Of a stretch of 31,548 nucleotides of DNA, positions 3,597 to 29,665 are shown one piece after another (within the stretch, counting starts at the first letter, position 1; each line of letters starts with the position of its first letter). A program made the translations under genes and the position numbers. The notes under the pieces were generated by a model that saw only the letters and a list, made by a program, of their open reading frames with translations, made no database searches and was not told where the DNA came from. Source of the DNA: Candidatus Rifleibacteriota bacterium (GTDB taxonomy: Bacteria > Riflebacteria > Ozemobacteria > Ozemobacterales > Ozemobacteraceae); assembly GCA_029565415.1 (NCBI GenBank), contig JAKQOH010000056.1, positions 1 to 31,548 of the forward strand, given 5' to 3'.

Positions 3597-5924
3597 TCAG
3601 GACTCGGACAGCGTGGATTTCACGAACAGATAACTCTGCATCAGCGTCTTCAGCGACTCGTCGGGGTTCGGCGACTGGGCGCAGGCCTTGAGGGTCGCGT
3701 CGAAGGCCTTGAAGGCTTCGTTCGACCGCGACGTCGCCTGGAGACAATAGGCCAGCATCAGGTTCGACTCGACGTCGAGCGGGGAGAGCGAGACCGCCCG
3801 GGACAGAACCTCGACGGCCTGGTCATACTGGCGGGCATGCAGATGGAGCATCGCGAGTTTCTGGAACAGCACGGGGTTGCGGGGGGACAGTTCGACGGCC
3901 CGGGTCAGCAACTGGATGCTCTCGGCGGTGCGGCCGCCGAACTGGAAGATCTGGGCGAGGATCAGATAGGCGCCCAACAGCTTCGGATACAGGCTGAGTG
4001 CCTTCACGAGGTGGTCGCGGGCCTTGGGAAAATCTTTCTGGAAGTAGGCGATCGTGCCCAGGTTGTAATGGGCCTTGACCAGGTTCGGCTGCTGGAGCAG
4101 CGCCTTCTCGTACAGCGGGGCCGCATCGACAAAGCTTTTCTGGATGTAATGCAGGTTCGCGAGGCCGAGGAGGGCCTTGAAATTCTCGGGCTGGGCCTCG
4201 AGAATCGACGTGTACAGCACCTGGGCCTGCTGATACTCCCGGGCATTCACGGCGTTGGCCGCCATCTCGAGCTCCTGCTCGAAGGTTTCGAGAGGGGCCG
4301 GCGGCGGTTCGGGGGCGGCTGGCGGCTCGGCCGGGGCGTCGGTCGGAGCTTTCTGGGCTGCCGAAACCGGGGGCGCCGCCGGCGGAAGGGGCTCGATGCC
4401 CGCGGCGTTCGCGGCCGGGGCGGCGGCCAGGGCCGCTTCTGCAGCCCCGGGTTCGAGCAGTTTCGCCACGAGGGCGTTGACTGCCGAGTTGAGCCGGGTG
4501 TCACCGCTGATCGCGGTTCCGATCTCGCCCAGGACATACATCGCCGACTGGCGATACCGGGCATCGGCGTGGCAGAGCATCTGATGCAGGTTGTCGAGGA
4601 CGGAATACTCGTTCCACGACCACAGGGCACGGATTGCGTTGCTCTTGATGCGGTTGTCCTCGTGGGCAAGAAGCCGCTTGAGCGCCGTGACGAGGCCGGG
4701 CGCCGGGGCCGATCCGCTCAGCTTCTGCATGGCTTCGATCGTGTTCGAGACGACGCGGCTGTCGGTGTCGCTCAGATACGGCATCAACTGCTCGCCGAAC
4801 GGGGCTGCCCCCGTCTCGCCAAGGCTGCTGATCAGGGTCGCGCGCACGATCGGATTTTCCTCGGAGGAAAGCCGCGGTGCGAGCAGATCGCCGATCGAAG
4901 CCGGGGCGCACCGCGCGATCGCCTGGACGACCTGGACGCGAACGTCGTAGTTCGGGTCGTCGAGCAGCGGCGTGAGCAGTTTCACGGCGTTGGCCGACTG
5001 GAGCTTCTTGAGCGCGTTCGCCGCGTTCCGGCGCACGTCGGGGTCGTCGTCTTTCAGGGCGTGGGCCAGCTTCGGAATGAAGCGCACGTCGTGGATCTCG
5101 CCCATCGCGTAGGCCGCCGAGGCGCGGTACAGCTTGTCGGCGTGGCTGAGCATGTGGGTCAGCGTGTCCGAAACATCGAAGTCGCCATATTTCCAGATCG
5201 CCTTGGCGACGTTCGCCCGCACGCGGTTGTTGGGGTCCTCGAGGTATGGTTGTATAATGCCTACGATAGAACTCGACTTGATCCCCTCGATCGCCTCGAT
5301 CGCATTCGCCCGCACGCGCGGGTCCTCGTCGCGCAGGGAGGCCTGGAAGATCGGCAGCATTCGCTCGTTCGACATCAGACCGAGCGCCATGATGATCGAG
5401 GCCCGGATGCGCGGGCTCTTCTCCTGGGCGAGAATGCGCTTCAACAGCGGAATCGAAAGGTGGTTGCGGATCTTCCCGAGCGCGTTGATCGCCGAGATGA
5501 TCGCCTCCTCCTCGAAGAAAATGCGCCCGGTGCCGCTCGATGTCGTGCCGCCCGACACGTTGGTGTCGGCATACTCGTTCAGCGACTCCATCAGGACGTT
5601 GAACGCCTCCTGATTCTTGATCATGCCCAGCGCCTGGGCGGCGTTGAACCGCACTTCCTGCTGGGAATCGTTCAAGGCCTGCACGAGCAGCGAGATGGCG
5701 CGGGTGCTCTCGATGTTGCCGAGGGCGAGCGCCATGAAATCCTGGATGTTGTCGCTCTCGAAGTTTTCGAGCAGGAACGCGGTCGCCTGCTCGCTCTTGA
5801 ACTTCGAAAGCGCGATGGCGGCTTCGCGGCGCTGGTGGTAATCGCCTGTGCGGAAGCCGGTGATCAGCCCGGCCAGGAGCGGCTGCAGCTTGGACAGAAG
5901 CTCGTCGACGGGGGAGTTCGGCAT
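3597..5924 (-). CDS. HEAT-repeat/TPR scaffold protein (paralog 1)
   Basis: The 775-aa soluble protein has no signal peptide or TM segment. Residues about 25-480 are tandem HEAT/armadillo-type helical pairs (repeated patterns such as DPRVRANAIEAI, NRVRANVAKAIWK, DPDVRRNAANALKKL). An Ala/Pro-rich linker follows (about 485-547), then about six TPR motifs to the end (for example KAHYNLGTIAYFQKDFPKAR). These are protein-interaction folds, and no catalytic motif is visible. It shares its HEAT-linker-TPR layout with the gene at 8138-10318, which is sandwiched between PilT ATPases. It starts 106 nt from, and divergent to, the first PilT gene. I infer a scaffold role in that system. It is also the first gene of the recG/rsmD operon. 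The start ATG has only a weak AGGA upstream. Confidence 0.85.
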   Translation of the reverse strand: MPNSPVDELLSKLQPLLAGLITGFRTGDYHQRREAAIALSKFKSEQATAFLLENFESDNIQDFMALALGNIESTRAISLLVQALNDSQQEVRFNAAQALGMIKNQEAFNVLMESLNEYADTNVSGGTTSSGTGRIFFEEEAIISAINALGKIRNHLSIPLLKRILAQEKSPRIRASIIMALGLMSNERMLPIFQASLRDEDPRVRANAIEAIEGIKSSSIVGIIQPYLEDPNNRVRANVAKAIWKYGDFDVSDTLTHMLSHADKLYRASAAYAMGEIHDVRFIPKLAHALKDDDPDVRRNAANALKKLQSANAVKLLTPLLDDPNYDVRVQVVQAIARCAPASIGDLLAPRLSSEENPIVRATLISSLGETGAAPFGEQLMPYLSDTDSRVVSNTIEAMQKLSGSAPAPGLVTALKRLLAHEDNRIKSNAIRALWSWNEYSVLDNLHQMLCHADARYRQSAMYVLGEIGTAISGDTRLNSAVNALVAKLLEPGAAEAALAAAPAANAAGIEPLPPAAPPVSAAQKAPTDAPAEPPAAPEPPPAPLETFEQELEMAANAVNAREYQQAQVLYTSILEAQPENFKALLGLANLHYIQKSFVDAAPLYEKALLQQPNLVKAHYNLGTIAYFQKDFPKARDHLVKALSLYPKLLGAYLILAQIFQFGGRTAESIQLLTRAVELSPRNPVLFQKLAMLHLHARQYDQAVEVLSRAVSLSPLDVESNLMLAYCLQATSRSNEAFKAFDATLKACAQSPNPDESLKTLMQSYLFVKSTLSES

Positions 5925-6030: not shown

Positions 6031-7098
6031 ATGAGCGGAACAACCCTCTATGAATTGCTGAAACTCACGTTCGAGCGCCACGGATCGGACCTGCATCTGA
6101 AAGCCGGCCAGGCGCCCGCGGTGCGTATCGACGGCATGATCGAGCACCTCGACCGGGGCCGCTTTTCCCGGAACGAGTTCGCCCGCCTCCTCGAGGCGAT
6201 CCTGACTCCCGAGCAGGCGCGGCAGTTCGACGAGACGAACGAGCTGGACTTCGCCTATGCCCTCGAGGGCATCTGCCGCTTCCGCGTGAACCTGTACCGC
6301 GACATCAACGGCCCCGGGGCCGTGTTCCGCGTCATTCCCTATCAGGTGATGAGCTTCGACGAGATCGGCCTGCCGATCGCGGCCCAGAAGCTGATCGAGC
6401 AGCCCAACGGCCTCATCCTCATCACCGGCCCGACCGGCGCCGGCAAGACCTCGACGCTCGCCAGCTACATCAGCTACGTGAACGCCCAGGCGCGCCGCCA
6501 CATCGTCACGATCGAGGACCCGATCGAATACCAGTTCGAAGACGGCCAGTCGATCGTCAACCAGCGCCAGGTTGGCAGCGACTGCCTCGGCTTCTACGAG
6601 GGGCTGCTGACGGTGCTGCGCCAGGATCCCGACATCGTCGTGGTCGGCGAGATGCGCGAGCCGAAGACGATCGCGCTCACCCTCGGAGCCGCCGAGACCG
6701 GCAAGCTCGTGCTCGCGACGCTGCACACGACTTCCGCCGTCCAGACCGCCGAGCGCATCGTGAACGTGTTCCCCGAGAACCAGCAGCGGCAGATCCTTCA
6801 CCAGCTCTCGACCGTGCTGCGCGGCGTCGTCTCCCAGACGCTGTTGCCCAAAACGGACGGGGGGCGGGTCGCCGCATTCGAGGTGCTGATCAACACCTCG
6901 GCGGTGCGCGCGCTGATCGGCGAGGGCAAGATCCACCTGATCCCCTCGTTTCTCGAGACCGGCTCGGAGTTCGGCATGACCACGATGGAAATGTCGCTCG
7001 CGGCGCTGGTCAAGCAGGGTAAGGTGCGCGCCGAGGAGGCGCTGATCGCGGCCCCCAACCCGGCGGCCCTTCGCAAGCTGATCGGCGGAAAGGATTGA
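6031..7098 (+). CDS. PilT/PilU-type twitching ATPase (paralog 1, canonical)
   Basis: This is a hexameric secretion-motor ATPase of the type IV pilus retraction family, acting at the cytoplasmic face of the inner membrane. Its 355 aa match PilT length (about 345). The N-terminal PAS-like domain carries SDLHLKAG (19-26). The ATPase core has Walker A GPTGAGKT (133-140), the Asp box IEDPIE (161-166), Walker B with GEMRE (206-210, catalytic Glu207) and the His box TLHTTSA (His232). The C-terminal AIRNLIRE signature of PilT is altered to AVRALIGE. All catalytic residues are present, so it should hydrolyse ATP. It is the first gene of the cluster and is followed after 5 nt by paralog 2. PilT and PilU are not separable here without a phylogeny. 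Confidence 0.93.
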   Translation: MSGTTLYELLKLTFERHGSDLHLKAGQAPAVRIDGMIEHLDRGRFSRNEFARLLEAILTPEQARQFDETNELDFAYALEGICRFRVNLYRDINGPGAVFRVIPYQVMSFDEIGLPIAAQKLIEQPNGLILITGPTGAGKTSTLASYISYVNAQARRHIVTIEDPIEYQFEDGQSIVNQRQVGSDCLGFYEGLLTVLRQDPDIVVVGEMREPKTIALTLGAAETGKLVLATLHTTSAVQTAERIVNVFPENQQRQILHQLSTVLRGVVSQTLLPKTDGGRVAAFEVLINTSAVRALIGEGKIHLIPSFLETGSEFGMTTMEMSLAALVKQGKVRAEEALIAAPNPAALRKLIGGKD

Positions 7099-7103
7099 CG
7101 GGA

Positions 7104-8141
7104 ATGCTGCGCATCCACACCTATTTCGATCTCGCCCTTTCCCGGAAAGCCTCGGATCTTCATCTGAAGGCGGGCAGCCCGCCCGTGCTCCGGATCGGCG
7201 GCCGGCTCGTCCCGCTTTCCGAGGAGCCCCTCGCCCACCAGGAGATGCCGAACCTGTTTTTGCCGCTGATGGACACGCGCCAGCAGGAGTCCCTGCGCAC
7301 CACGATGGAAGCGAACTTCATGATCGCGTATCGCGACAAGGTGCGGGTGCGCGGCTGTATCTACCGGCAGCGCGGCTGTCTTTCGGGCGCGTTCCGGTTC
7401 ATCCCGACCCGCGTGCCCAGCATCGACGGCCTGAAGCTGCCCGTAAAGCTCAAGGAAATGGCCCAGCGGCCGCGCGGCCTGTTCCTCGTCACCGGCCCGG
7501 CCAACTCCGGTAAGACCCACACGCTCGCGGCGATGGTCCACGAGATCAACAAAACCAGCTCCCGCCACATCATCACGATCGAGGACCCGATCGAGTTCGT
7601 GCACCAGCCGCGCCGCTCGCTGTTCACCCAGCGCGAGATCGGCTCGATGACCGCGAATTACCACTCGGCCCTGATGCATGCCCTTCGCGAAGACCCCGAT
7701 GTGATGCTGGTCGGCGAGATGCGCGACATCGACACGATCGAGATGGTGCTGACCGCCGCCGAAACCGGCCACCTCGTGCTCTCGACGCTTCACACCGTCG
7801 GCGCCGTCCAGACGATCGACCGCATCGTCAACGTGTTCCCGGGCCACCGGCACGACGAGATCCGCACCCAGCTCTCGCTTTCGCTGCTCGGCACCATCTC
7901 CCAGATCCTGATCCCGAGCCGGAACAAGAACGAGCGCGTCATGGCATACGAGCTGATGATCCTCAACTCCGCCATGCGCAATATGATCCGCGAGAAGAAG
8001 ACCAACCAGCTCCGCTCGGCCCTGATGCTCGCCCGCAAGGACGGCTGCGTCACGATGCGCGACAATCTCGCCGAGCTGATGCGCGACGAGCGGGTCGATG
8101 GCCGGCTTGTCAACGCCATCCTCAAGGAGATCGTGGAATGA
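7104..8141 (+). CDS. PilT/PilU-type twitching ATPase (paralog 2, canonical)
   Basis: This is a second intact PilT-family motor, 345 aa. Motifs are SDLHLKAG (17-24), Walker A GPANSGKT (131-138), Asp box IEDPIE (159-164), Walker B VGEMRD (203-208, Glu205) and His box TLHTVGA (His230). It keeps the retraction-ATPase signature as AMRNMIRE (290-297), closer to true PilT than paralog 1. An in-frame TTG at 7095 would overlap the previous stop. I chose the ATG at 7104 because the alignable family sequence starts there and CGGGA precedes it. Its end overlaps the HEAT-TPR start by ATGA, so the two are translationally coupled. Confidence 0.93.
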   Translation: MLRIHTYFDLALSRKASDLHLKAGSPPVLRIGGRLVPLSEEPLAHQEMPNLFLPLMDTRQQESLRTTMEANFMIAYRDKVRVRGCIYRQRGCLSGAFRFIPTRVPSIDGLKLPVKLKEMAQRPRGLFLVTGPANSGKTHTLAAMVHEINKTSSRHIITIEDPIEFVHQPRRSLFTQREIGSMTANYHSALMHALREDPDVMLVGEMRDIDTIEMVLTAAETGHLVLSTLHTVGAVQTIDRIVNVFPGHRHDEIRTQLSLSLLGTISQILIPSRNKNERVMAYELMILNSAMRNMIREKKTNQLRSALMLARKDGCVTMRDNLAELMRDERVDGRLVNAILKEIVE

Positions 8142-10318
8142 GCGGCGCCGAACTGCACGAGATCGAATCCTTCCGGTATGTGAAAGCGGCGCGCCGCCTG
8201 CTGCGGCCCGTCACCGAGCGACTCTCCGCGATCGTCCAGGCCGCCGAGGCTCCCGACGACGCGAAAACAGAGGCGCTGCTCGCCCTCGGCAAGATCGGCG
8301 ACCCCGCCGCCCTCGGCATCCTGCGCAACGCCCTCGACGGCTGGCCGGACCGCATCGAGCCGATCACGGCTCTCGGCCACCTTCGTGACAGCACCCCCGT
8401 CCAGCGCCTTCTCGAGCTGCTCGACGACCCCGAGCATCCCTTCAAGGAGGAGATCGTGCGGGTGATCGGGGTGATCGGCGATCCGATGGCTGCGAAGAAG
8501 CTGATGGAGCTGCTGCACGACCAGGACCGCATGGTGCGGTATGAAGCCGCCTGGGCGCTGTACCGCATCGGCGGCCGTGACGTGGCCCAGAGCCTCTGCC
8601 GCCTCCTCTCGGACCCCGACGAGTGGATCGTCATCAACATCCTCGAAATCCTCTCGCGGCTGAAGGAGGCCGACGCGATTCCGGCCCTGGTCGGCCAGTT
8701 CGAGATAGCCCGAGACCCGCGCCTGAAGGCGATCATGATCTCCTCGCTTGCGATGTTCGCCGAGCCGCAGCTGCTCCACATCTTCGAAAAGGGGCTCGAT
8801 TCGTTCGATCCGCGCATCCAGGCCAACTCGGTCGAGGCGATCGCGATGCTCAAAATCCCCGCGCCCGAGATGCGCCGCAAGCTGAAGAAGTTCTTCTCGC
8901 ACCCCAACAACCGCGTTCGGGCCAACGTCTGCATCGCCCTCGCGAAGGCCGACGAGACGAAAGTCGTCGAGGAGATCGACGCGATGCTGGCGAGCCCCGA
9001 CGTACCCACGCGCCGCTCAGCCGGCTACGTGCTCTCGCGGGTGCAGATCAAGGGCCGCGATGGCCTCATCGACCGGCTGCTGGCCGACGAGGCCTACGTC
9101 GTCCGGAAAATGGCGCTCAAAGCGGCTCTCGCACTCGAGACCGAGGTCGGCCAGGCCCGCATCGTGCCTCTGCTGCGTGACCCGAATCAGTGGGTGCGCC
9201 GAGAGGCCGTCGACTGCGCCCGCAAGATCCCCGGCTTCCCGGCCGAACCCGTGCTCGACGCCTTCAAGGCCGAGTCATCGCCCGCGGTCTGGGAGAGCAT
9301 GCTTGCCTTCTTCACCGAGCGCCATCTCGACGGCTGCATCCCGCTGATCGTCCAGAAGATCAAGTCCGAGCCGGAAGAGGGCCTGCCGCGCCTGATCTCC
9401 GCTCTCGGGCATCTCGATGCGCGTGATGCCATCGCCGAAGCGAAGCGGTTCGTCGGCACCCAGAGCGCCGAGAATATGCGCGAATTCTTCATCGCCCTCC
9501 TGCTGCACGGGGATCTGACCGTCCTCGCCGACCTTGCGAACCTGCTTCGCGACAAGACCCGCGAAGAGGAACAGGCCATCCTGCTGCGCGTCGTCGGGGA
9601 CGTCGGGGAGTTCGTCCGGAATCCCGACGGCTACTCCCGCCGACTGCGTGAGGCGCTCGCCGCCGAGGTGAAAAAGGACATGGAAGGGGTCGCCGCGCTC
9701 GACGCCGCCCCGACCGCCGCGCCGCCGCTTCCCACCGATCTGGCCGCGCTTCCCCGGGGCTTGGCCCTGCTCGAAGCCGGAAAACTCGACGAGGCCCAGC
9801 GCTTCTTCGAAAGCTTCGTCGGCATCTTCCCGCACCATCCCGAGGGGCTGTTCAGCCTCGCGACGGTGTACTTCAAGAAGAATCTCGCCGAACGGGCCCT
9901 GCCGCATCTCATAACGCTGATGGACAAAGTCCCTTCGCACGTCGCGGGCGGCCTGCTGCTCGGCCAGATCCACTTCCAGAAGAAAAACTGGACTGCGCTG
10001 CTCGAGCTGTACGACCGGCTTCGCAAGCATGTTCCCGCCGACGACCGGCGCACCCTCGGCCAGGTGAACGGTGCGCTCGGCCTCGCGTATTTCCATCTCA
10101 AGAAGTATCAGAAGGCGATCGAGGTGCTGAACCAGGCGATCCGCGAGAACGCCCGCGACCTCTCGTCGGCTTACCATCTCGCGCTTTCCTACTACGCGGT
10201 CCGCGAGCATGCGGCGGCGCTCAAGCTGCTGCGGGGGCTGAAAAAGAGTCTTCCGCCCGACAGCCGGGTGTTCCGCAACGTCGAGGAGCTGCTCCAGAAG
10301 CTCGAGGATGAGAGCTGA
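8138..10318 (+). CDS. HEAT-repeat/TPR scaffold protein (paralog 2)
   Basis: The 726-aa protein has no signal peptide or TM segment. Residues about 30-500 are HEAT-like helical repeats (for example EAWALYRIGGRDVAQSL-type units, HPNNRVRANVCIALAK, DPNQWVRREAVDCARK). A short Ala/Pro-rich linker (about 515-540) leads to four or five TPRs up to residue 720. It has the same order of modules as the divergent gene at 3597-5924. The start ATG overlaps the stop of PilT-2 (ATGA), with AAGGAG upstream, so the two proteins are made together. By position it is probably a binding partner of the PilT-type motors; no enzymatic motif is visible. Confidence 0.88.
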   Translation: MSGAELHEIESFRYVKAARRLLRPVTERLSAIVQAAEAPDDAKTEALLALGKIGDPAALGILRNALDGWPDRIEPITALGHLRDSTPVQRLLELLDDPEHPFKEEIVRVIGVIGDPMAAKKLMELLHDQDRMVRYEAAWALYRIGGRDVAQSLCRLLSDPDEWIVINILEILSRLKEADAIPALVGQFEIARDPRLKAIMISSLAMFAEPQLLHIFEKGLDSFDPRIQANSVEAIAMLKIPAPEMRRKLKKFFSHPNNRVRANVCIALAKADETKVVEEIDAMLASPDVPTRRSAGYVLSRVQIKGRDGLIDRLLADEAYVVRKMALKAALALETEVGQARIVPLLRDPNQWVRREAVDCARKIPGFPAEPVLDAFKAESSPAVWESMLAFFTERHLDGCIPLIVQKIKSEPEEGLPRLISALGHLDARDAIAEAKRFVGTQSAENMREFFIALLLHGDLTVLADLANLLRDKTREEEQAILLRVVGDVGEFVRNPDGYSRRLREALAAEVKKDMEGVAALDAAPTAAPPLPTDLAALPRGLALLEAGKLDEAQRFFESFVGIFPHHPEGLFSLATVYFKKNLAERALPHLITLMDKVPSHVAGGLLLGQIHFQKKNWTALLELYDRLRKHVPADDRRTLGQVNGALGLAYFHLKKYQKAIEVLNQAIRENARDLSSAYHLALSYYAVREHAAALKLLRGLKKSLPPDSRVFRNVEELLQKLEDES

Positions 10319-10400
10319 ATTCAAAGCGCAACTTTTCTTCGCAACCTGCCGATAACGAAGGGCGAACGCCACCGATATTCGAGCGAGAAAGGCCACAGGC

Positions 10401-11462
10401 ATGGATTTGTTGATGAAAGCCCTGGGACAGGTCGCCACATCCCGGGCATCGGATCTGCATATCACCCCGGGGGAGAATCCCTTCATCCGTATCAACGGGG
10501 TTCTGCAGCGGCTCGCCGGCATCACCTTCACCGAGGACGACGTGAAGAAGATCATTCTCGGGACGAGCTCGCCCCGCGCGCGGGAGATCCTCGGCAAGCA
10601 GCGCCAGGTGAACTACGCCTGGGAATCGGGGAACGAGGGTCGGTACCGGTTCTCGGTCTTCTTCGACCGCGGCAAATTCGGCATCGCCATCCGCGTCATT
10701 CCGCTCACGCCGCCCCGGTTCGGCGATCTGGGGCTGCCCGAGGCGATCAAGAAAGCCCTGGCCAAGCCGTCGGGGCTCATCATCGTCGGCAGCCCGTCGG
10801 GCCATGGCAAGACCACGACGATCGCCGCCCTGCTCGACTTTTACAACACGCATTTCGAGAAGAATATCATCACCGTCGAAAATCCCGTCGAAATCAAGTT
10901 CAAGGATGACCGCTCGACGTTCATCCAGCGGGCGATTCCGCTCGATGTTGAAAACTTCTATTTCGGCCTGACCGAGGCATACCGCCTCGACCCCGACGTC
11001 GTCGTGACCGACTCGCTCAACTACCGGGACGTGCTCGATGAGGCGCTGTTCCTCTGCGAATCCGGCTGCACCGTGATCGGGGCCACCGACGGCGGAAGCT
11101 GCTCCCAGATCATCGAGCGGATGATCTACTCCCGGGATACGGCCGAGCGCGACTCCCTGAAGGGGAAACTCGCGACGCACGTCTCGATGGTGATCGGTCA
11201 GAAGCTCGTGCCGAAGGCCGACAACATGTCGCGGTGCGCCGCGTTCGACGTGCTGATCAACACGCCGCAGGTCAAGACGCTGATCCGGAACGAAAACCTG
11301 GTCATGATGAAAACCCTGCAGGAGCAGGATCACGCCTCGGGCATGCTGACGTTCGACCGGCATCTCGCGACGATGGTCCAGAAAACCGTGATCACGTCCC
11401 AGACCGCGATCGCGTATGCCGACGACCCGCACGAGATGGCGGGCCGGTTCGCCCGCAAGTGA
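10401..11462 (+). CDS. Degenerate PilT-family ATPase paralog (3)
   Basis: The 353-aa protein aligns with PilT end to end. It keeps the N-terminal SDLHITPG (17-24) and a P-loop SPSGHGKT (131-138) with its Lys137, although the first Gly is Ser. Other catalytic sites are changed: the Asp box is VENPVE (Asp to Asn161), Walker B reads TDSLNYRD where VGEMRD is expected (the Glu position is Ser205), and the His box reads GATDGGS, with Asp230 in place of His. ATP binding is plausible; normal hydrolysis is doubtful. It lies 82 nt after the HEAT-TPR gene and 7 nt before paralog 4. The ATG has AAAGG about 9 nt upstream. I infer a regulatory or structural motor subunit. Confidence 0.88.
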   Translation: MDLLMKALGQVATSRASDLHITPGENPFIRINGVLQRLAGITFTEDDVKKIILGTSSPRAREILGKQRQVNYAWESGNEGRYRFSVFFDRGKFGIAIRVIPLTPPRFGDLGLPEAIKKALAKPSGLIIVGSPSGHGKTTTIAALLDFYNTHFEKNIITVENPVEIKFKDDRSTFIQRAIPLDVENFYFGLTEAYRLDPDVVVTDSLNYRDVLDEALFLCESGCTVIGATDGGSCSQIIERMIYSRDTAERDSLKGKLATHVSMVIGQKLVPKADNMSRCAAFDVLINTPQVKTLIRNENLVMMKTLQEQDHASGMLTFDRHLATMVQKTVITSQTAIAYADDPHEMAGRFARK

Positions 11463-11469
11463 GGCCCCC

Positions 11470-12510
11470 ATGGATCTGAAACAACTGCTCACGATGGTTC
11501 AGGAATCCGGCGGAACCGAGATTCACCTCAAGGTCGGTTCGCCCCCGCTCGTCCGGCAGAACAAGTTTCTGCGCAAGCTGTCGATGCCTGCCGTCCAGCC
11601 CGTCGACATCGCCGGCGTGGTGAAACAGGCTCTTTCCCCCGAGGAGCTGGCGAAGTTCAACCAGCTGCGCCAGTTCGAGGCGAACTACTTCGGCGGGGCG
11701 CCGTGCAACTACCGGCTGAATCTGTTCCAGGCGCAGTCCCAGACGATGGCGATCATCCGGCTGATCCGCAAGGCCGTGCCGAACTTCGCCGAGATTTCGC
11801 TGCCGCCGGCTCTCGAGGCGCTGACCGAGGCGAAGGCCGGCCTGGTGATCCTGGCGGGGCCCTGCCGCTCCGGCATCTCGACCTCGCTTGCCGCCTTCGT
11901 CGAGCGGATCAACCAGGCGCGCTCCGCGCACGTGCTGCTGTTCGAGGACCCGATCGAGTTCTCGTTCGAGCCGAAAAAGTGCCGCATCACGCAGCGCCAG
12001 TTCAAGAAAGACCTTTATTCAATAGAGTCTGGTATAAATTTCGCCAAGCGCATGGATGTCGACGTGCTCGTGATCGGCGATCTGAAGCGCGAGCTGCCGT
12101 TCCGGAGCATTCTCGAGTATGTCGCGGGCGGCAACTTCGTCGTTCTCACGATGCAGACCCTGGGGATCCAGAACACGCTCGAAAAGATCTTGTATGCCTT
12201 CCCGGAAAGTGACCGGCCGTACATCGGCAACGTGCTCGCCACGAGCCTGCTCGGCATCTGCTCCCAGGCGCTGCTGCTCAATCCGGGCTCGAAGAAGCTC
12301 ATCCCGATCCACGAGGTGTTCATCTCCAACAGCACCATGGCCGGCATTCTCCAGAAGGGCCGTGTGAACCAGATCGAGCCGAACCTCCGCAGCGCCGGTG
12401 AGGGCAGCATCACGTTCGAGCAGAGCGCCGGCCGGCTGATCCGTGACGGGATGCCGAAAGACGTGCTCGACGCCTTCGTGACGATGTACCGCGGGGTGAA
12501 GAGCGCGTGA
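11470..12510 (+). CDS. Degenerate PilT-family pseudo-ATPase paralog (4)
   Basis: The 346-aa protein has the PilT fold in sequence order (EIHLKVGSPPLVRQ near 17-30) but a broken P-loop, GPCRSGIS (130-137), in which the essential Lys is Ile136. The Asp box FEDPIEF is kept (158-164). Walker B is IGDLKRE (Glu to Asp204) and the His box is LTMQTLG (His to Gln229). Loss of the Walker A Lys makes it a likely pseudo-ATPase. The ATG at 11470 has GAGG just upstream; a longer in-frame start at 11416 would run into paralog 3. Its stop overlaps the GTG of the pseudopilin gene (GTGA). A short AT-rich patch at 12014-12043 stands out from the GC-rich gene. Confidence 0.9.
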   Translation: MDLKQLLTMVQESGGTEIHLKVGSPPLVRQNKFLRKLSMPAVQPVDIAGVVKQALSPEELAKFNQLRQFEANYFGGAPCNYRLNLFQAQSQTMAIIRLIRKAVPNFAEISLPPALEALTEAKAGLVILAGPCRSGISTSLAAFVERINQARSAHVLLFEDPIEFSFEPKKCRITQRQFKKDLYSIESGINFAKRMDVDVLVIGDLKRELPFRSILEYVAGGNFVVLTMQTLGIQNTLEKILYAFPESDRPYIGNVLATSLLGICSQALLLNPGSKKLIPIHEVFISNSTMAGILQKGRVNQIEPNLRSAGEGSITFEQSAGRLIRDGMPKDVLDAFVTMYRGVKSA

Positions 12511-12893
12511 ACGCGATGAAAGCGCGCTTCGGCGCCGGGTTCACCCTGATCGAGATGAGCGTCGTCGTCGCCATCATCGGGATCCTGTATTTCACCGTCG
12601 CCCCGATGTACGGAACCACGATTCTCCGCGCCCGGGAAACGGCCCTCAAAGAGGATCTGCACGTCCTGCGCAAGGTGCTCGACCAGTATTACAAGGACCG
12701 GCAGGCATGGCCCGCCGATCTCGACAATCTCGTGCGGGACGGCTACCTGAGGGCGATCCCGGCCGATCCCATCACGGGGCGCACCGACTCCTGGCTGGTC
12801 ATCCCGTCCGAAGACGGAAAACAGGATGTGTTCGACGTGCGCTCCGGTGCCACGGGAGCCTCGAGCGAAGGTTCGGCGTATGGCTCCTGGTGA
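12507..12893 (+). CDS. GspG-like pseudopilin / type IV pilin-like protein
   Basis: This 128-aa prepilin has a short basic leader, a class III cleavage site Gly11|Phe12 and the signature GFTLIEMSVV with Glu at mature position 5 (Glu16). The hydrophobic N-terminal helix runs to about residue 33. The globular part resembles major pseudopilin GspG (DLHVLRKVLDQYYKDRQ, then L-x-x-L-V-x-x-G-Y-L and IPADPITG, a D-x-F-D-V-R-S-G end and a Gly-Ser tail). Such proteins form a periplasmic pseudopilus or pilus after processing by PilD. I chose the GTG at 12507 because it overlaps the paralog 4 stop (GTGA); the ATG at 12516 is an equally possible start. Confidence 0.88.
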   Translation: MNAMKARFGAGFTLIEMSVVVAIIGILYFTVAPMYGTTILRARETALKEDLHVLRKVLDQYYKDRQAWPADLDNLVRDGYLRAIPADPITGRTDSWLVIPSEDGKQDVFDVRSGATGASSEGSAYGSW

Positions 12894-13266
12894 CCGGGCA
12901 TCGAGACGGGGCGTCGCCCTCCTCGCGCTGACGGTCGCCCTGCTCTTGTCCGGCATCGCTCTCGCGCTCTGGCTGCCTCGCGCCAACCTCGACGTGAAGC
13001 GGGCGAAGGAGGAGGAGCTGCGGTTCGTCCTCGGCGAGTTCCGGCGGGCGGCGGAAAAATTCGTCCGGCGGAACGGCCGGCCCCCGGTTTCCCTCGAGGA
13101 GATGTGCCGTGACGCCCAGGGGCGCCGGTTCCTGCGCCGGATCTACGCGGATCCGATGACGGGGCGAACCGACTGGAATGTGCTCGTTTCCTCGGCGGGC
13201 ATCGATATTTCCTCCTCGTCCCCCGAAACCTCGGCGGGCGGCGTCCCGTATTCCCGCTTCCGGTAA
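12880..13266 (+). CDS. Pseudopilin-like protein lacking Glu5
   Basis: The 128-aa protein has a basic leader (MAPGDRASRR), a putative cleavage Gly11|Val12, and a hydrophobic helix to about residue 33. A soluble domain with EEELRFVLGEFRRA and the ending LRRIYADPMTGRTDW follows. That last motif recurs in PulG-like minor pseudopilins found beside GspG genes. Mature position 5 is Ala instead of the usual Glu, as in some minor pseudopilins placed at the tip. It overlaps the preceding pilin by 14 nt in another frame, and GAAGG lies upstream of the ATG. A longer start at 12826 is rejected as internal to the pilin. It is the last gene before the terminator. Confidence 0.8.
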   Translation: MAPGDRASRRGVALLALTVALLLSGIALALWLPRANLDVKRAKEEELRFVLGEFRRAAEKFVRRNGRPPVSLEEMCRDAQGRRFLRRIYADPMTGRTDWNVLVSSAGIDISSSSPETSAGGVPYSRFR

Positions 13267-24365: not shown

Positions 24366-27300
24366 TCACGCCGTTTCGATCATGTCCAGAAACGCCTTCA
24401 AAGATTCCGCCGTGGTGCAATACTGATCATCATGTTCGGTGTTACCGTTCTGGTCTGCTTGAGTGCCGAGCCTTACAAGTCGCTCAAACAGCGGACTGCC
24501 ATGCCATATCAGTTGATGACTTTCGAAATGTTCATCGAAAATCTCCGGTGAACTGGTTACGCGAGTCACTGCCTCCGCCCCGGGAAGTTGCAAGGAGTAG
24601 GTCATCGGTTCGAGGGGCCGGCATGTCACACCTTTTGGCAGGAGACTCTTCGTGGACAGGATCCGGTCCATATCTGCAGGTGACACCGGAGGGACCGGCA
24701 ATCCCGGAGGGCGCACGTCGGCATCACTGATCGCGTCGATATCAAAGCCTCCCCTGTCTGCCAGTTCGACGCGATTCAAGATGTCATCTATGAAGTCCTT
24801 CCGCATGCTCGATCGGTCGACGGCCCCACACAGCACGGCCCGTTCGAAGTCCCCGGGAAGCTGGGCGAGGATCGGCTGAAGACGTCCGACAACGCCGTTG
24901 AACAGATCGATTCGCCTGCTCAAGGCAAAATATATATCTGCCTCTATAGTATCTGCATAGGCGAGGTTGACAACCCGGACATCCGCATATTTCTGGCCGA
25001 TCCGGTCGATACGGCCGATGCGCTGCTCGACTTTCATCGGGTTCCAGGGCAGGTCATAATTGATGAGCGCCCCGCAGGTCTGGAGGTTCAACCCTTCGCC
25101 TGCGGCATCGGTGCAGATCATGACCCGAACCTGCCGGGTATTCAGATACCGCTTGATCATTTCCTTGCTGCACGCCGTCCACACGCCGCTTGAATCCCGA
25201 TACTGGCCGCCCGCGCCGCAGAAACAGCCGATGGGAATTTCCAGTTGATCCGACAGGAACTCCTTGAGGTAATCCATCGTGTCGGTGTATTGGGTGAATA
25301 CGATCGCAGCGTCGAAACCGCCGTCCATCAAACGACGAATTTCTTTCGACAGGCGAAGGGCCTTGGAATCGGTGCCGAGCTTGGCGATCGCTCGAAGAAG
25401 TTCGAGAATGCTTTCCCTTTTTTCGACCAGCGCGGCTTCATTCAGAACCTCTTCGGGAGCATCGGTAGCGACGCTTTCCTCACCGAGATCGTCCGTCAGG
25501 TCATCATCCTCGATACAGCCCGTTCCCGCGACCGCCGGGAACGCATCGTCCCGAGGCAGCCGCTCCAGGCTGTTCATCAGCGTCTTTTTCAACGCATGGA
25601 AACTGCTCGCCATGCGCCGCCGGTAAATCGTCATGATGAACCCGACCGAAGGCTTCTGCTTCAGCGAAGCGGCCTGGTATGTCGAACTGATGTATTCCTC
25701 GACCGCCTGATAGAGCTGCTGTTCTGCCGGATTCATTTCGATGGCGAGATCCTCGACCAACCGCCTGGGAACATTCTGAGTGAGCAGGCCGCGCCTGTAA
25801 TACTCCCGAAGCAGGGTCCGGGTGTGCCTCGACATGAGCGCCCGAACGGGGCTCCCGATTTTCAGAAGCGCCAGGGCGCCCATTCGCTGTTTCGGGGAAA
25901 GGCGCTTGATCGGGATCAGGCTGCCCGGTTCCCGCAAGGCATCGAGAATCTTTTTCCGATCGATCGTGGTGAGGGAAAGATGCCCGGCAACTCGGTCGAT
26001 TTCCGATTCGGGCAGGGGGCCGAACCGCGCCTCACAGACCTGAAAAAGCCGGGCCATCCGTTGAAGACCCGGGTCGTCGACAGGCCGCTGGACATCTTCG
26101 AAAAACCGGACGAACGTCTCATCAGACCATTCCTCGGGCATCCCGAGCAGATCGAGAAGATCCCACACCTCGACGGGTGCGACCTGCATCGGCGTGGCCG
26201 TGAGCAGAAGAAGCGACTCCGTTTTCTGCCGAAGCGCCCGCATCAGGCGGAGAAGCAGGTTGGCCCCTCCCTCCTGGGTCGTGCCCGCGCCACGTCTTCG
26301 CGCATGGTGGGCTTCGTCGAGAACGACCATATCCCAGGGCTGGGCTTCTTCCAGCTCTTTCTGCCGTTCCCGCCGCCGGGCAAGCTGGCTGGAAACCAGC
26401 AGGCATGGCTCCCGGTTCCAGACATCGGACTCGACGCTCGTTTCCGATGGGCCCTCCGCGCCGTGATACCGGGGGTATACGAGATACTGTCCGGTATATA
26501 TCGGAACGATGAGATTGAACTTTTCGTACAATTCCCCCTGCCACTGCCTGAGCACCGCCTTCGGCGCGAGGATCAGCAAGCGCCTGACCTTCCCGCTGAT
26601 CAGCAGATGCCGGATGGCAAGGCCCGCCTCGATCGTCTTGCCGAGACCGACCTCGTCGGCGATCAGCAGGCGGATCGGCCAGCTTTTCAATAGTCTTTGA
26701 TATGCACGAACCTGGTGCGGCCAGGGCGTCACTGTGCTCGTGGCGATCGCGACGGTCTGCCCGTCGTTCTGCCGCCGCGGCAGGGTTTTGATGAACGACC
26801 AGAGTTGCGCAAGCCTGGCAGGCGCGATCTCGGCCGGCAACGCGGCGGCATCCGGCTGGCATGGCCGGTTCTCCCGCTTCGCCACCGGCTTTCCGATGAG
26901 CAATGGGTCGCGATCCGGAATGAACGACAACAGCTTTTCCCGAACAGCGGTTGGGATGTCGAAGACCTCGGCGGACTTTGCCGTATTGGTCCAGAGCGCA
27001 TGAAAATCGGCCTCGGCTTTCGAAATCCGCTTCCGGTCCCATTCTCCACGCCAGGAACAGCTTACGGAAAACGACTCCCAATTGTGTTTCCAGCCTGCTT
27101 CCGTTTCATTCAGCGACCCCGAAAAGGCCAGGGTATTGCTCTCCCTGTCCGTGATCAGGCCCACCTTTGCATGAACGAGCCCGACCCCGGCCAGAGGATT
27201 GCCCTTCGCAAGCCGGGGAACAGCCACCTTTATCTGAAGATGGCCATGCGCCACCATCCACGCCAGCCAGCCGAGTCGCTCCCGCTGTTCTTCCGGACTG

Positions 27301-27620
27301 CCCACCAGATCGGGGACCTCCCGAAGTATGCGGTCGGATAGAACCTCCTGGATTTTCAACCCCTGCTCGATCCTCGCGACATCCTCGGCCGTAAGGGTGC
27401 AGCCCGAGACGAGCTCCATCTTCCCGCCGTTCCGCAACAGGCCCAGAAGGCCGTTGGCGACAACATTCAGCACTCCGCCGGAAAAGTAGCCGGTCACCCG
27501 TCGATAGAGCGTTCCGCAACGTAGCGCCGGTTCGTAGAACGTCGCGATCAGGTCGCCGTCTTCATGGCTGTAGGATGGATGCCAATCTGTATTCGGCAAC
27601 AGACAGTCGGCTGAACTCAT
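24366..27620 (-). CDS. PLD-like/SNF2 helicase of a defence cassette
   Basis: The 1084-aa protein has two parts. The N-terminus (about 20-210) is a phospholipase D-like domain with HAKVGLITD (150-158) and GSLNETEAGW (168-177). From about 295 it is an SNF2-family helicase: Walker A ADEVGLGKT (321-329), DEAH (435-438), LTATPMQ, TDAAGEGLNLQ and QRIGRIDRIGQ. SNF2 enzymes translocate on duplex DNA. Fused to PLD domains they recur in anti-phage islands beside DUF1156 methylases. Only one HKD-like motif is visible, so nuclease activity would need a dimer or may be absent. The ATG overlaps the stop of the AlbA_2 gene (ATGA). A longer start at 27677 is possible but overlaps that gene more. No clear terminator follows. 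Confidence 0.93.
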   Translation of the reverse strand: MSSADCLLPNTDWHPSYSHEDGDLIATFYEPALRCGTLYRRVTGYFSGGVLNVVANGLLGLLRNGGKMELVSGCTLTAEDVARIEQGLKIQEVLSDRILREVPDLVGSPEEQRERLGWLAWMVAHGHLQIKVAVPRLAKGNPLAGVGLVHAKVGLITDRESNTLAFSGSLNETEAGWKHNWESFSVSCSWRGEWDRKRISKAEADFHALWTNTAKSAEVFDIPTAVREKLLSFIPDRDPLLIGKPVAKRENRPCQPDAAALPAEIAPARLAQLWSFIKTLPRRQNDGQTVAIATSTVTPWPHQVRAYQRLLKSWPIRLLIADEVGLGKTIEAGLAIRHLLISGKVRRLLILAPKAVLRQWQGELYEKFNLIVPIYTGQYLVYPRYHGAEGPSETSVESDVWNREPCLLVSSQLARRRERQKELEEAQPWDMVVLDEAHHARRRGAGTTQEGGANLLLRLMRALRQKTESLLLLTATPMQVAPVEVWDLLDLLGMPEEWSDETFVRFFEDVQRPVDDPGLQRMARLFQVCEARFGPLPESEIDRVAGHLSLTTIDRKKILDALREPGSLIPIKRLSPKQRMGALALLKIGSPVRALMSRHTRTLLREYYRRGLLTQNVPRRLVEDLAIEMNPAEQQLYQAVEEYISSTYQAASLKQKPSVGFIMTIYRRRMASSFHALKKTLMNSLERLPRDDAFPAVAGTGCIEDDDLTDDLGEESVATDAPEEVLNEAALVEKRESILELLRAIAKLGTDSKALRLSKEIRRLMDGGFDAAIVFTQYTDTMDYLKEFLSDQLEIPIGCFCGAGGQYRDSSGVWTACSKEMIKRYLNTRQVRVMICTDAAGEGLNLQTCGALINYDLPWNPMKVEQRIGRIDRIGQKYADVRVVNLAYADTIEADIYFALSRRIDLFNGVVGRLQPILAQLPGDFERAVLCGAVDRSSMRKDFIDDILNRVELADRGGFDIDAISDADVRPPGLPVPPVSPADMDRILSTKSLLPKGVTCRPLEPMTYSLQLPGAEAVTRVTSSPEIFDEHFESHQLIWHGSPLFERLVRLGTQADQNGNTEHDDQYCTTAESLKAFLDMIETA

Positions 27621-29665
27621 GACTTCGCATCCCCAAAGATCTTCCGGAGTTCCATCACGTCGGGCTCCTGTTCGCACCTGTAGAGCTGATCGGGAGCATT
27701 GAGGTGCTCAGGGTGCCGGCGGTGGATGATCCGGCACTCGATCAGCCGCTTCAGATACCGGTCACGAATATGAGCGGGGTTCCGCCTCAGCAATCCGGCC
27801 AGCTCATCCAGTCTCAATTCGCGTGCGCGGCAGAGACGAACGATGATTTGAGCGAGGCCGACGGGTGAGAGCCTCCGCCGTTTTACAGCCGGAAGGGCAA
27901 TGGCCAGAAGAGCTTCGTCAAAGTGAGCCGATGTATCACTATGCTGATAGATTTTGCCGTTATGTGGGCGTGAATCGTCGTTATGTGGGCGTGAATCGCC
28001 GTTATGTGGGCATGGTTCGCCGGTATGTGTGCGTGAGTCATCGCTCTGTGGAGTTTGCCCTGCGTTGAGCCGGCCTGGACCATCATCGTGCGCCTGGCCA
28101 GTCAGGCCGTCGGTTCCGGGTTCCGCCGCGCCCGGCGATGAGCTCGGCAAGGGAAAATACTTCGCCCCCCGCTTGTTCCCTTCCTGCCGCAGCCAACCAC
28201 GGGTGACAAGTGCGTGAAGACTCCGGGTGATATCGGTCGGATGATCATCGACGATCTCCTGAAGCCTGACGTTCGTCACGCAACCCTCGACCTGTGCGGT
28301 GACCAGGGCCTGGATTTCAAAGGGGGAAAGCGAAGCGAATGCGCTTTTGAGCCTGTTTTTCAATGCTTCGAGAATCTCGGGTGGATGCAGGCTGACGAAC
28401 GGCATTCTGACATACACGCGGGCAGGTTCTACGAGCTCCTCGATAGCGGGTTTTCGCCACTGCTGGGAAGCCCAGCCCCGGAAGATCTTGGCCATTCCGG
28501 AGCCCGCCTTCTCGCCGCCGCCGATGAGCTGGAACATGGTCTGAAGCGAGCGGTTGCGGCAATCGCTGATGTTCCCGCTCGTGGTGATGAGCGAGAGGGG
28601 GACCAGGAACGTCCCGGGGTTGGCAAACTCGAGGCCGAGGCGCGTATGCTGAATGACGACGCCGCCGGTTCCTGCGTAGTCGGCATGGATCAGGGCATTG
28701 ACCAGAGCTTCACGAACGGCCTCGTGAACGACCGTTTCCCCTTTCCGCAAAAGCTCACCATCGAGCTGGAAGGGCACCGAAAGGTTGGCGTTCAGGCGCT
28801 GAATCGTGGTGAAGAAAAAGCTGAAGAGATTGCCGGGCCATGTTCCATCCGGAATGATGCGAAGGTCCCACCGGATGTTGGGATCGTCAGAAAGCTTCTC
28901 CCGGTAGTCGACATGGTAGGCCGGGAACGCCTCGTTCGAGCGTATGGCCGCCCACTTTCCGAACATGAGGATTCCGGCGGCGGTGATCCCTTCCTCCTCG
29001 GAGCGACGATCCCGGCGCCAGCCGCCCAGGGCCTCGAGGAAGGGAAGGTCATCGAGCTCGAGGAACGGATGGGCGGGCGTTCGGGAAGACAACCGCTGGC
29101 GGTACTGGTGAAGCGAGACGGTATCGATGTCTTTGAGCGTAAACCCGGGAAGGATGCGGCTGTCTACGGGATCATCGCCCTGTTCGGCGATCATGCGTTT
29201 GATCAGGCCCGGGTCGGCGCGGTGATCACCCTCGGAATGACGCCGGAACGTGCCTTCGAAGGGGTTTTTCCCCAGAAAGACGGGCCGCTTTTGCCGTGGT
29301 GCCCGAGGGACGGAAATGACGAGGACCTGGAGATCCCCGACGGGCACGACGGCCACGTCCTTGTGGAGAAGGAGGTTGCAACTGACGGTGTTGCTGTTAT
29401 GGGCTCCGTCCCAGAGCTCTTTCTCGATGGCCTGCGGGTTCTTCAGGCCGTCGATGCGGAACTGCCCGCCAACCTCGGAGACACCCAGAACGATGATGCC
29501 GCCGTCGGTGTTGGCGAAGGCGCTGTATGTCTCCCACGCGCTCCGAGGGAAGCCGCCCTGCGCCGCCTTTACCTCGAAATCGAACCGCTCTCCGATGCTG
29601 AGACGACGTCGGAGGTCGGATTCATCGAGGATGCGTGCGATTGCACGCGGGGTGGCGTCCGTCAT
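27617..29665 (-). CDS. AlbA_2/HATPase protein with winged-helix tail
   Basis: The 682-aa protein has an AlbA_2 (SLFN-like) domain at about 20-140 (FEVKAAQGG, AFANTDGGIIVLGV) and a GHKL-type ATP-binding region at about 305-400 (EALVNALIHADY, EFANPGTF, GGGEKAGSGMAKIF). Helical/winged-helix segments at about 440-505 and 585-682 resemble DNA-binding modules. COG2865-type proteins of this layout are known as predicted regulators and are common in mobile or defence islands; their biochemical role is poorly defined. A linker (about 545-575) carries heptad repeats. Start ATG and stop both overlap neighbours by ATGA, binding it to the methylase and helicase in one operon. Confidence 0.9.
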   Translation of the reverse strand: MTDATPRAIARILDESDLRRRLSIGERFDFEVKAAQGGFPRSAWETYSAFANTDGGIIVLGVSEVGGQFRIDGLKNPQAIEKELWDGAHNSNTVSCNLLLHKDVAVVPVGDLQVLVISVPRAPRQKRPVFLGKNPFEGTFRRHSEGDHRADPGLIKRMIAEQGDDPVDSRILPGFTLKDIDTVSLHQYRQRLSSRTPAHPFLELDDLPFLEALGGWRRDRRSEEEGITAAGILMFGKWAAIRSNEAFPAYHVDYREKLSDDPNIRWDLRIIPDGTWPGNLFSFFFTTIQRLNANLSVPFQLDGELLRKGETVVHEAVREALVNALIHADYAGTGGVVIQHTRLGLEFANPGTFLVPLSLITTSGNISDCRNRSLQTMFQLIGGGEKAGSGMAKIFRGWASQQWRKPAIEELVEPARVYVRMPFVSLHPPEILEALKNRLKSAFASLSPFEIQALVTAQVEGCVTNVRLQEIVDDHPTDITRSLHALVTRGWLRQEGNKRGAKYFPLPSSSPGAAEPGTDGLTGQAHDDGPGRLNAGQTPQSDDSRTHTGEPCPHNGDSRPHNDDSRPHNGKIYQHSDTSAHFDEALLAIALPAVKRRRLSPVGLAQIIVRLCRARELRLDELAGLLRRNPAHIRDRYLKRLIECRIIHRRHPEHLNAPDQLYRCEQEPDVMELRKIFGDAKS
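27961..28044. repeat. Four 21-bp tandem repeats in the AlbA_2 gene
   Basis: Four 21-nt units start at 27961, 27982, 28003 and 28024. The first two differ at one base, the outer ones are more diverged, and a partial fifth follows. Each encodes a seven-residue unit with His, Asn, Asp, Ser and Arg/Pro (RPHNDDS-like) on the minus strand. The repeats are in frame and directly abutting, without spacers. Confidence 0.9.

Follow-up and report, generated by a model that had tools for sequence, protein, structure and literature searches.

Organization of the locus

We analysed a window of 31,548 nucleotides, the whole of the stretch under study, from a Candidatus Rifleibacteriota bacterium (contig JAKQOH010000056.1). 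Between 6031 and 13266 its plus strand can be read as one operon holding the genes P1, P2, H1, P3, P4, G1 and G2 in this order, i.e. four PilT-family genes which are consecutive save for one HEAT-TPR gene and end in two pseudopilins, as a preliminary description of this DNA had it and as both open reading frames (ORFs) and profiles agree. P1 and P2 keep the residues of a functional PilT, and P3 and P4 are pseudo-PilTs whose altered active sites are conserved among their homologues. The features are listed below, the last one being a divergent neighbour.

6031..7098, plus strand: P1, intact PilT-family ATPase (TIGR01420 416.9 bits; motifs; E 5e-97 against a solved PilT)
7104..8141, plus strand: P2, second intact PilT-family ATPase (TIGR01420 393.7 bits; intact motifs)
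8138..10318, plus strand: H1, HEAT-repeat and TPR protein (HEAT_2 E 1e-47; TPR)
10401..11462, plus strand: P3, pseudo-PilT (best NCBIfam family TIGR01420, 266.2 bits; motifs; structural model)
11470..12510, plus strand: P4, pseudo-PilT (best NCBIfam family TIGR01420, 210.8 bits; motifs; structural model)
12507..12893, plus strand: G1, GspG-like pseudopilin with Glu5 (PF07963 N_methyl 21.6 bits, cut-off 21.2)
about 12880..13266, plus strand: G2, second pseudopilin, without Glu5 (homology to the G1 family by BLAST and alignment)
3597..5924, minus strand: H0, divergent neighbour with HEAT and TPR as in H1 (HEAT_2 E 3e-69; TPR)

TIGR01420 describes the PilT/PilU family type 4a pilus ATPases, and its curated cut-off of 319.1 is passed by P1 and P2 and missed by P3 and P4, though it is still the best family for both; the family scores also rule out that P3 or P4 is a PilB or a GspE. 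Identity to P1 lies at 28-38% for P2, P3 and P4. P2 carries AMRNMIRE, which is AIRNLIRE-like and sets it apart from PilU, a protein marked by the absence of AIRNLIRE, and the single PilU reference in the tree described below forms a long, unresolved branch.

Concerning gene starts, a longer P2 would begin at the in-frame TTG at 7095, and reading from 7104 yields 345 residues, the length of most orthologues; for P4 the ATG at 11470 is better than 11416. Overlaps of 4 bases join P2 to H1 and P4 to G1, the gap between H1 and P3 measures 82 bases, and 7 bases separate the P3 stop from the ATG of P4. Over the loci compared, the P2-H1 overlap is 4 bases in all 11 with both genes called, and the H1-P3 gap ranges from 15 to 84 bases across 13 loci. 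H1 is a probable scaffold of the PilT motors. H0 directly adjoins P1 in 8 of the 12 P1-holding loci (among L001-L017), a neighbourhood which makes a second scaffold possible.

Active site motifs of the four paralogues

Four residues of a functional PilT were scored in each paralogue: the Walker A Lys, the Asp-box Asp, the Walker B Glu and the His-box His. P1 (GAGKTST, EDPIE, VGEMRE and TLHT) and P2 (NSGKTHT, EDPIE, VGEMRD and TLHT) keep all four and, judging from these intact motifs, would form hydrolysing PilT-type rings that act as power supply. P3 (GHGKTTT, ENPVE, TDSLNY and ATDGG) is without three of the four, with Asn for the Asp-box Asp, Ser for the catalytic Glu, the His-box His lost and the Walker A Lys kept. 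P4 (RSGISTS, EDPIE, IGDLKR and TMQT) also lacks three of four, showing Ile for the Walker A Lys (in the stretch GPxRSGISTS), Asp for the catalytic Glu and Gln for the His, with the EDPIE Asp box intact. The alignment thus bears out what the preliminary description had said of P1, P2 and P3; for P4 it had recognised the loss of Lys and His and overlooked that of the catalytic Glu.

The altered states are a property of whole groups of homologues. Among the best 120 of 4345 P3 homologues above threshold, 90 form the P3 group (P0092-P0181), and in all 90 the Walker Lys is present, the Asp-box position is Asn and the catalytic Glu is replaced by Ser; the His column holds Glu in 47, Asp in 39, Gly in 3 and Ser in 1, i.e. 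an acidic residue in 86 of 90. P3 proteins thus show DGG or EGG where the His box would be, and TDS in place of VGE. None of the five scored residues is altered in any of the next 30 PilTs among the same best 120 (P0182-P0211). The search with P4 found 91 proteins, 86 of which (P0001-P0086) constitute the P4 group: here the Lys column contains Ile in 84, Val in 1 and a gap in 1 (Lys absent in 85/85 scorable), the Glu column Asp in 85 and Glu in 1, and the His column Gln in 79, Pro in 3, a gap in 2, His in 1 and Ala in 1 (His lost in 83/84 scorable). The remaining five (P0087-P0091) are intact save for one Glu to Asp change. N161, S205 and K137 do not vary in an alignment of the window P3 with 39 of the 89 further members of its group, and I136, D204 and Q229 are present in at least 90% of the window P4 plus 37 of the 86 members of its group. 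Since identical substitutions are fixed across 90 and 86 clusters of homologues, the active site pattern of P3 and P4 is not due to chance.

Such fixed replacements, together with the Walker A Lys kept throughout the P3 group and the acidic residue at its His column, could also indicate divergent motors with rearranged catalytic sites, in which P4 would use Asp as base and P3 an Asp or Glu in place of the His. This explanation appears quite improbable to us, given the Ser that replaces the catalytic Glu in every P3 and the Walker Lys missing from every scorable P4, residues needed for binding or hydrolysis according to excerpts from work on Vibrio cholerae PilT (PMC6762196; this and the other articles on PilT are cited here from excerpts of their text).

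Selection, phylogeny and predicted fold

Ratios of nonsynonymous to synonymous substitution rates (dN/dS) were obtained by the Nei-Gojobori method for up to eight orthologue pairs per gene, and they are to be taken as rough, because several dS values exceed 1. They amount to 0.046-0.153 for P3 (8/8 pairs) and 0.024-0.167 for P4 (7 usable of 8, the eighth being saturated), next to 0.021-0.142 for P1 (7 pairs), 0.020-0.128 for P2 (8 pairs), 0.046-0.194 for H1 (7 usable of 8), 0.063-0.185 for G1 (5 usable of 6) and, for RecN, 0.099 and 0.207 (2 pairs). P3 and P4 are both under purifying selection.

The preliminary description had named species-specific decaying duplicates as a finding that would refute its proposal. 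In favour of duplicates heading for loss, both evolve somewhat faster than P1 and P2 (identity between the window and L001 is 82% for P3 and 75% for P4, and 88% for P1 and 89% for P2) and sit on long stems. We consider this explanation practically negligible, as dN/dS lies far below 1, the replacement residues themselves are conserved, and P3 and P4 are present in 19 and 20 of 39 genomes of the phylum (see below).

A tree was built by a quick method from 96 chosen out of 148 PilT-family sequences of the fetched loci plus 4 references, with support from the Shimodaira-Hasegawa-like approximate likelihood ratio test (SH-aLRT). P3 and P4 each form one clade (support 100, starred), with stems of 1.88 and 2.04. 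In a tree on 77 of the 100 rows P3 joins P1 and its relative P1' (see below) with support 77, not starred; placing P4 with P2 and P2', or P3 with P4, is in neither case rejected by the approximately unbiased test (p-AU 0.379 and 0.446, respectively). P3 may have arisen from the P1 group and P4 from the P2 group.

Concerning the fold, the AlphaFold2 model of P4 has a mean predicted local distance difference test score (pLDDT) of 90.8 and template modelling scores that reach 0.88 against PilT4 and 0.91 against PilU, so that P4 is predicted to have the PilT monomer fold. The P3 model (pLDDT 86.2) shows a PilT-like order of elements, with a weak stretch at residues 163-181, just past the altered Asp box.

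Distribution and gene order in Riflebacteria

A scan with P4 over one genome per species gave 18 loci, 15 of which are recorded under the names Candidatus Riflebacteria, Rifleibacterium or Ozemobacter(aceae) and one to a gammaproteobacterium (28% identity); the loci of relatives rule out an operon unique to the window. The phylum was then represented by 39 Riflebacteria genomes, whose completeness is not stated, in which P2, H1, P3 and P4 were surveyed. Orthologues of P4 occur in 20 of the 39 (45-75% identity, the other 19 reaching at most 32% among the matches listed), of P3 in 19 (47-82%), of H1 in 19 (51-80%; 28 candidates scored per genome, of 56-241) and of P2 in 20 (73-89%).

As carriers we counted 22 genomes, either with P4 present or with P2-H1 running into a contig end (G015 and G026); in the latter two the contig ends account for the missing P3 and P4. 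H1 adjoins P3 in 17 of these 22 carriers, in 16 by coordinates and in G026 with P3 cut by the contig end. Of the other five, two are undecidable through contig ends (G015 and G017) and three differ (G005, G009 and G010). Hence, the gene order on which the preliminary description had made its proposal depend is conserved in relatives. In L010, P3 is immediately preceded by a gene of the protein-arginine deiminase family (7285-8757).

Recurrence of the PilT-PilT-HEAT/TPR unit

A second unit, P1'-P2'-H1', was found in L090, L092, L094, L097, L102, L105 and L106. In the tree P1 and P1' form a group (99, starred), as do P2 and P2' (100, starred), and therefore the PilT-PilT-HEAT/TPR unit has been duplicated. 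Loss of active site residues is found here as well: the Asp-box Asp is lost in all 13 P2' sequences of the set (Asn in 8, Ser in 4, Cys in 1) and all 13 have Pro for the His; 11 retain the catalytic Glu and 2 have Gln instead. As a joint P3 and P4 clade is not rejected, the branches with active site losses number two at the least (P2' and P3/P4) and may number three.

Partner domains also occur in one chain. The set includes 17 PilT-family ORFs (stop to stop) of at least 550 residues, and 12 of these contain in-frame HEAT_2 repeats, whereas a cyclic-nucleotide-binding domain and an MshEN domain occur in 2 each; examples of HEAT-PilT fusions are found in L074-L081, L101:5766-8159, L129:559-2535 and others. 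Because the partner domains are fused in the same phylum, a physical link between HEAT proteins and PilT is likelier than from neighbourhood alone.

The second unit is divergent from a run of genes for an ABC ATPase, FtsX, an M23 peptidase, an S41 peptidase, pilin-like proteins, PilB and PilM (L090, genome G001), where the ABC ATPase beside FtsX is FtsE by its place. In G002 (L180) the corresponding stretch continues to PilM, PilN, PilO and more HEAT and TPR proteins. The position of the ABC-FtsX-M23-S41 run next to pilus genes in L090 and L180 makes a link of wall remodelling with pilus assembly possible.

Further odd PilT rows were observed, namely Asp to Arg with His to Asn in L088 and L101:5766, Asp to Glu in L095 and L101:8156, Asp to His in L073, and His to Gln in L129:2115. 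In L089 (8257-11978) the gene after a tandem pair of intact PilTs encodes an adenylate/guanylate cyclase domain together with a zinc ribbon, which suggests cyclic-nucleotide signalling tied to retraction.

Pseudopilins and remaining pilus machinery

Among the NCBIfam pilin models GspG (TIGR01710) is the closest to G1, with 46.0 bits and thus below the cut-off of 88.85. G2 has no Pfam or NCBIfam match; BLAST and alignment show that it is homologous to G1, sharing the core LR..DP.TG..DW, and that Glu5 is absent from it. The pseudopilins hence pair one normal with one reduced copy. Like G2, GspK-type tip pseudopilins generally lack Glu5. G1 is present in 13 of 18 loci (L001-L017 and the window), and also in L175 and L176.

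A Pfam scan of the other main ORFs of the window gave no match to PilB, PilC or PilM-Q, in line with the preliminary description, which had noted none nearby, and no gene of a type II secretion system besides the G1 and G2 pseudopilins was found in the window. Those other ORFs, none of them a pilus gene, encode RsmD, RecG, an HU-like protein, RecN, SpoIID, a sodium symporter and a BMP-type ABC transporter, to which come three genes similar to defence components, the last on the minus strand at 24369-31473: an SNF2-type helicase (BrxH, PLD-helicase, PbeA and HmaA models), an AlbA_2 protein with a RecG-C-like ATPase domain and an HmaB/DUF1156-like DNA methylase.

Ten relatives, G001-G010 (L002, L006, L007, L009-L011, L013-L015 and L017), were searched for the pilus machinery. 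T2SSE matches occur in all ten (17-33 each, PilT copies included), as do T2SSF matches (13-27), and secretin (4-10 matches) and PilM (4-8) in 9 out of 9 relatives searched. By their T2SSE and T2SSF matches these relatives are rich in type IV filament genes. Because relatives carry the core pilus genes elsewhere, the operon resembles a module for regulating or retracting type IV pili more than a machine of its own; the preliminary description's candidate for an undescribed system is in this respect strongly worded.

Proposed mechanism

We propose, with moderate confidence, that the operon is a type IV pilus retraction module in which P3 and P4, as catalytically silent PilT-fold subunits, would act as clutch, brake or adaptor. 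P1 and P2 would give power as hydrolysing PilT-type rings, and P3 and P4 would be retained by selection as parts of the machine, not as engines. P3 would probably bind ATP without hydrolysing it and so be nature's equivalent of a PilT E-to-A mutant; P4 would probably be unable to bind it and so correspond to a K-to-A mutant. By analogy, the silent rings may attach to the platform or form a stack with active rings. H1 may tether or position the rings, and G1 and G2 may be minor pilins or an initiation or tip pair.

The analogy comes from V. cholerae, where strains whose PilT can no longer bind or hydrolyse ATP show intermediate phenotypes that depend on PilU (PMC6762196): the K136A mutant is normally piliated, with retraction driven by PilU, and the E204A mutant is hyperpiliated and rarely retracts (PMC6821130). 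As P4 resembles K136A and P3 resembles E204A in these excerpts, P4 would fit an adaptor and P3 a brake.

The preliminary description had also listed mixed hexamers among the things to be tested. In such rings P3 and P4 would join P1 and P2 so that fewer sites fire per ring, a built-in gear. Membership in the same family and in one operon, with the identities to P1 given above, is compatible with this idea. We consider it very unlikely by analogy, since PilT and PilU assemble as independent homohexamers (PMC6821130), and since the equivalents of T221/H230, the closed-interface pair of PilT (PMC6858323), placed by our own alignment count, are Ser/Asp in P3 and Gly/Gln in P4; moreover, P3-P4 are found without P1-P2. 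Silent rings of their own would therefore be the favoured form of P3 and P4 in the retraction module.

Several observations weigh against this module as proposed. In G010, P1-P2-H1 and P3-P4-G1-G2 lie apart from each other on long contigs, and G005 and G009 hold P3-P4 with no P1-P2-H1 orthologue found (the phylum-wide survey covering P2 and H1 of these three); in view of these arrangements the partner of P3-P4 need not be P1-P2. Hence, from the dedicated motor complex with HEAT-TPR scaffolds of the preliminary description, the HEAT-PilT link is supported by the second operon and the fusions, and a single obligate four-PilT complex is a weaker point. Of the 18 loci scored for G1, five (L012-L016) show none next to P4, although L012 ends 369 bases past P4, and G2 is less constrained (dN/dS 0.170-0.374, 6 pairs). 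One of 19 P2 proteins (G028) has Lys for the Walker B Glu, and the Glu to Asp change of P4 and the altered boxes of P3 might leave weak activity. An adaptor role suits P4 better than P3, as E204A retracts rarely (PMC6821130).

The same arrangements, with P3-P4-G1(-G2) standing apart in G010 and G005 and P3-P4 in G009, the pseudopilins coming after P4 where found and GspG as closest pilin model of G1, would fit a separate minimal pseudopilus device for secretion or sensing, with the pseudo-motors as static platform and P1-P2-H1 as mere neighbour. We judge such a device unlikely, considering the adjacency of H1 in 17 of 22 carriers and the short H1-P3 gaps, the persistence of P3-P4 in L013-L015, where G1 was not detected beside P4, and the P3-P4 contigs of G005 (C22), G009 (C31) and G010 (C98), which have neither a T2SSF (among the matches listed) nor a secretin match.

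Returning to the retraction module, the preserved, long-disabled PilT copies suggest a service to the pilus machine as clutches or adaptors. More tentatively, and with rather less than even confidence, Riflebacteria may have evolved a whole layer of silent motors, with the P2', P3 and P4 losses on two or three branches, HEAT scaffolds that also occur fused to PilT, and a Glu5-less pseudopilin paired with a normal one. In this reading P3 would be an ATP-locked brake ring and P4 a nucleotide-free coupling ring, and the two would determine which of the active motors is engaged at the base of the pilus, a type IV pilus clutch that arose in nature.

Comparison with known systems

How PilT rings share work, and whether each ring has to hydrolyse ATP, has been studied via engineered dead mutants. 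The operon offers natural, evolutionarily stable dead PilTs that resemble both mutant classes, with the Walker Lys kept or lost, beside intact copies and a HEAT-TPR partner, and such natural dead PilTs suggest pseudo-enzymes in type IV filament motors, much as among kinases. No published account of such an operon was found in literature searches that are thin in subscription journals; as far as these reach, a double pseudo-PilT operon with a HEAT-TPR gene, fixed across much of a phylum, is new.

A natural PilT without Walker A is not a wholly new kind of protein, given the precedent of Bdellovibrio bacteriovorus PilT1 (Bd1510), a natural PilT paralogue which is reported to be without a Walker A box and for which a role in regulation or stability has been proposed (PMC4237445). 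It differs in that one such gene shares its operon with pilB and pilC, for which the excerpt mentions neither a second pseudo-PilT nor a HEAT-TPR gene. Geobacter sulfurreducens also has four PilT genes per genome, but according to the excerpt all four keep the Walker A/B, Asp-box and His-box residues, and their locus tags lie far apart (PMC5065972). The GspG of type II secretion resembles G1, whose score stays below the family cut-off.

Also among the closest known systems is the PilT/PilU pair of type IVa pili in Vibrio and Pseudomonas, with tandem PilT-family genes of which the second ATPase depends on the first, and where an experimentally dead PilT permits PilU-driven retraction (PMC6762196, PMC6821130). 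Unlike the operon described here, however, both genes of that pair have the Walker residues, to which the window adds two natural copies without them and a HEAT-TPR gene between the pairs.

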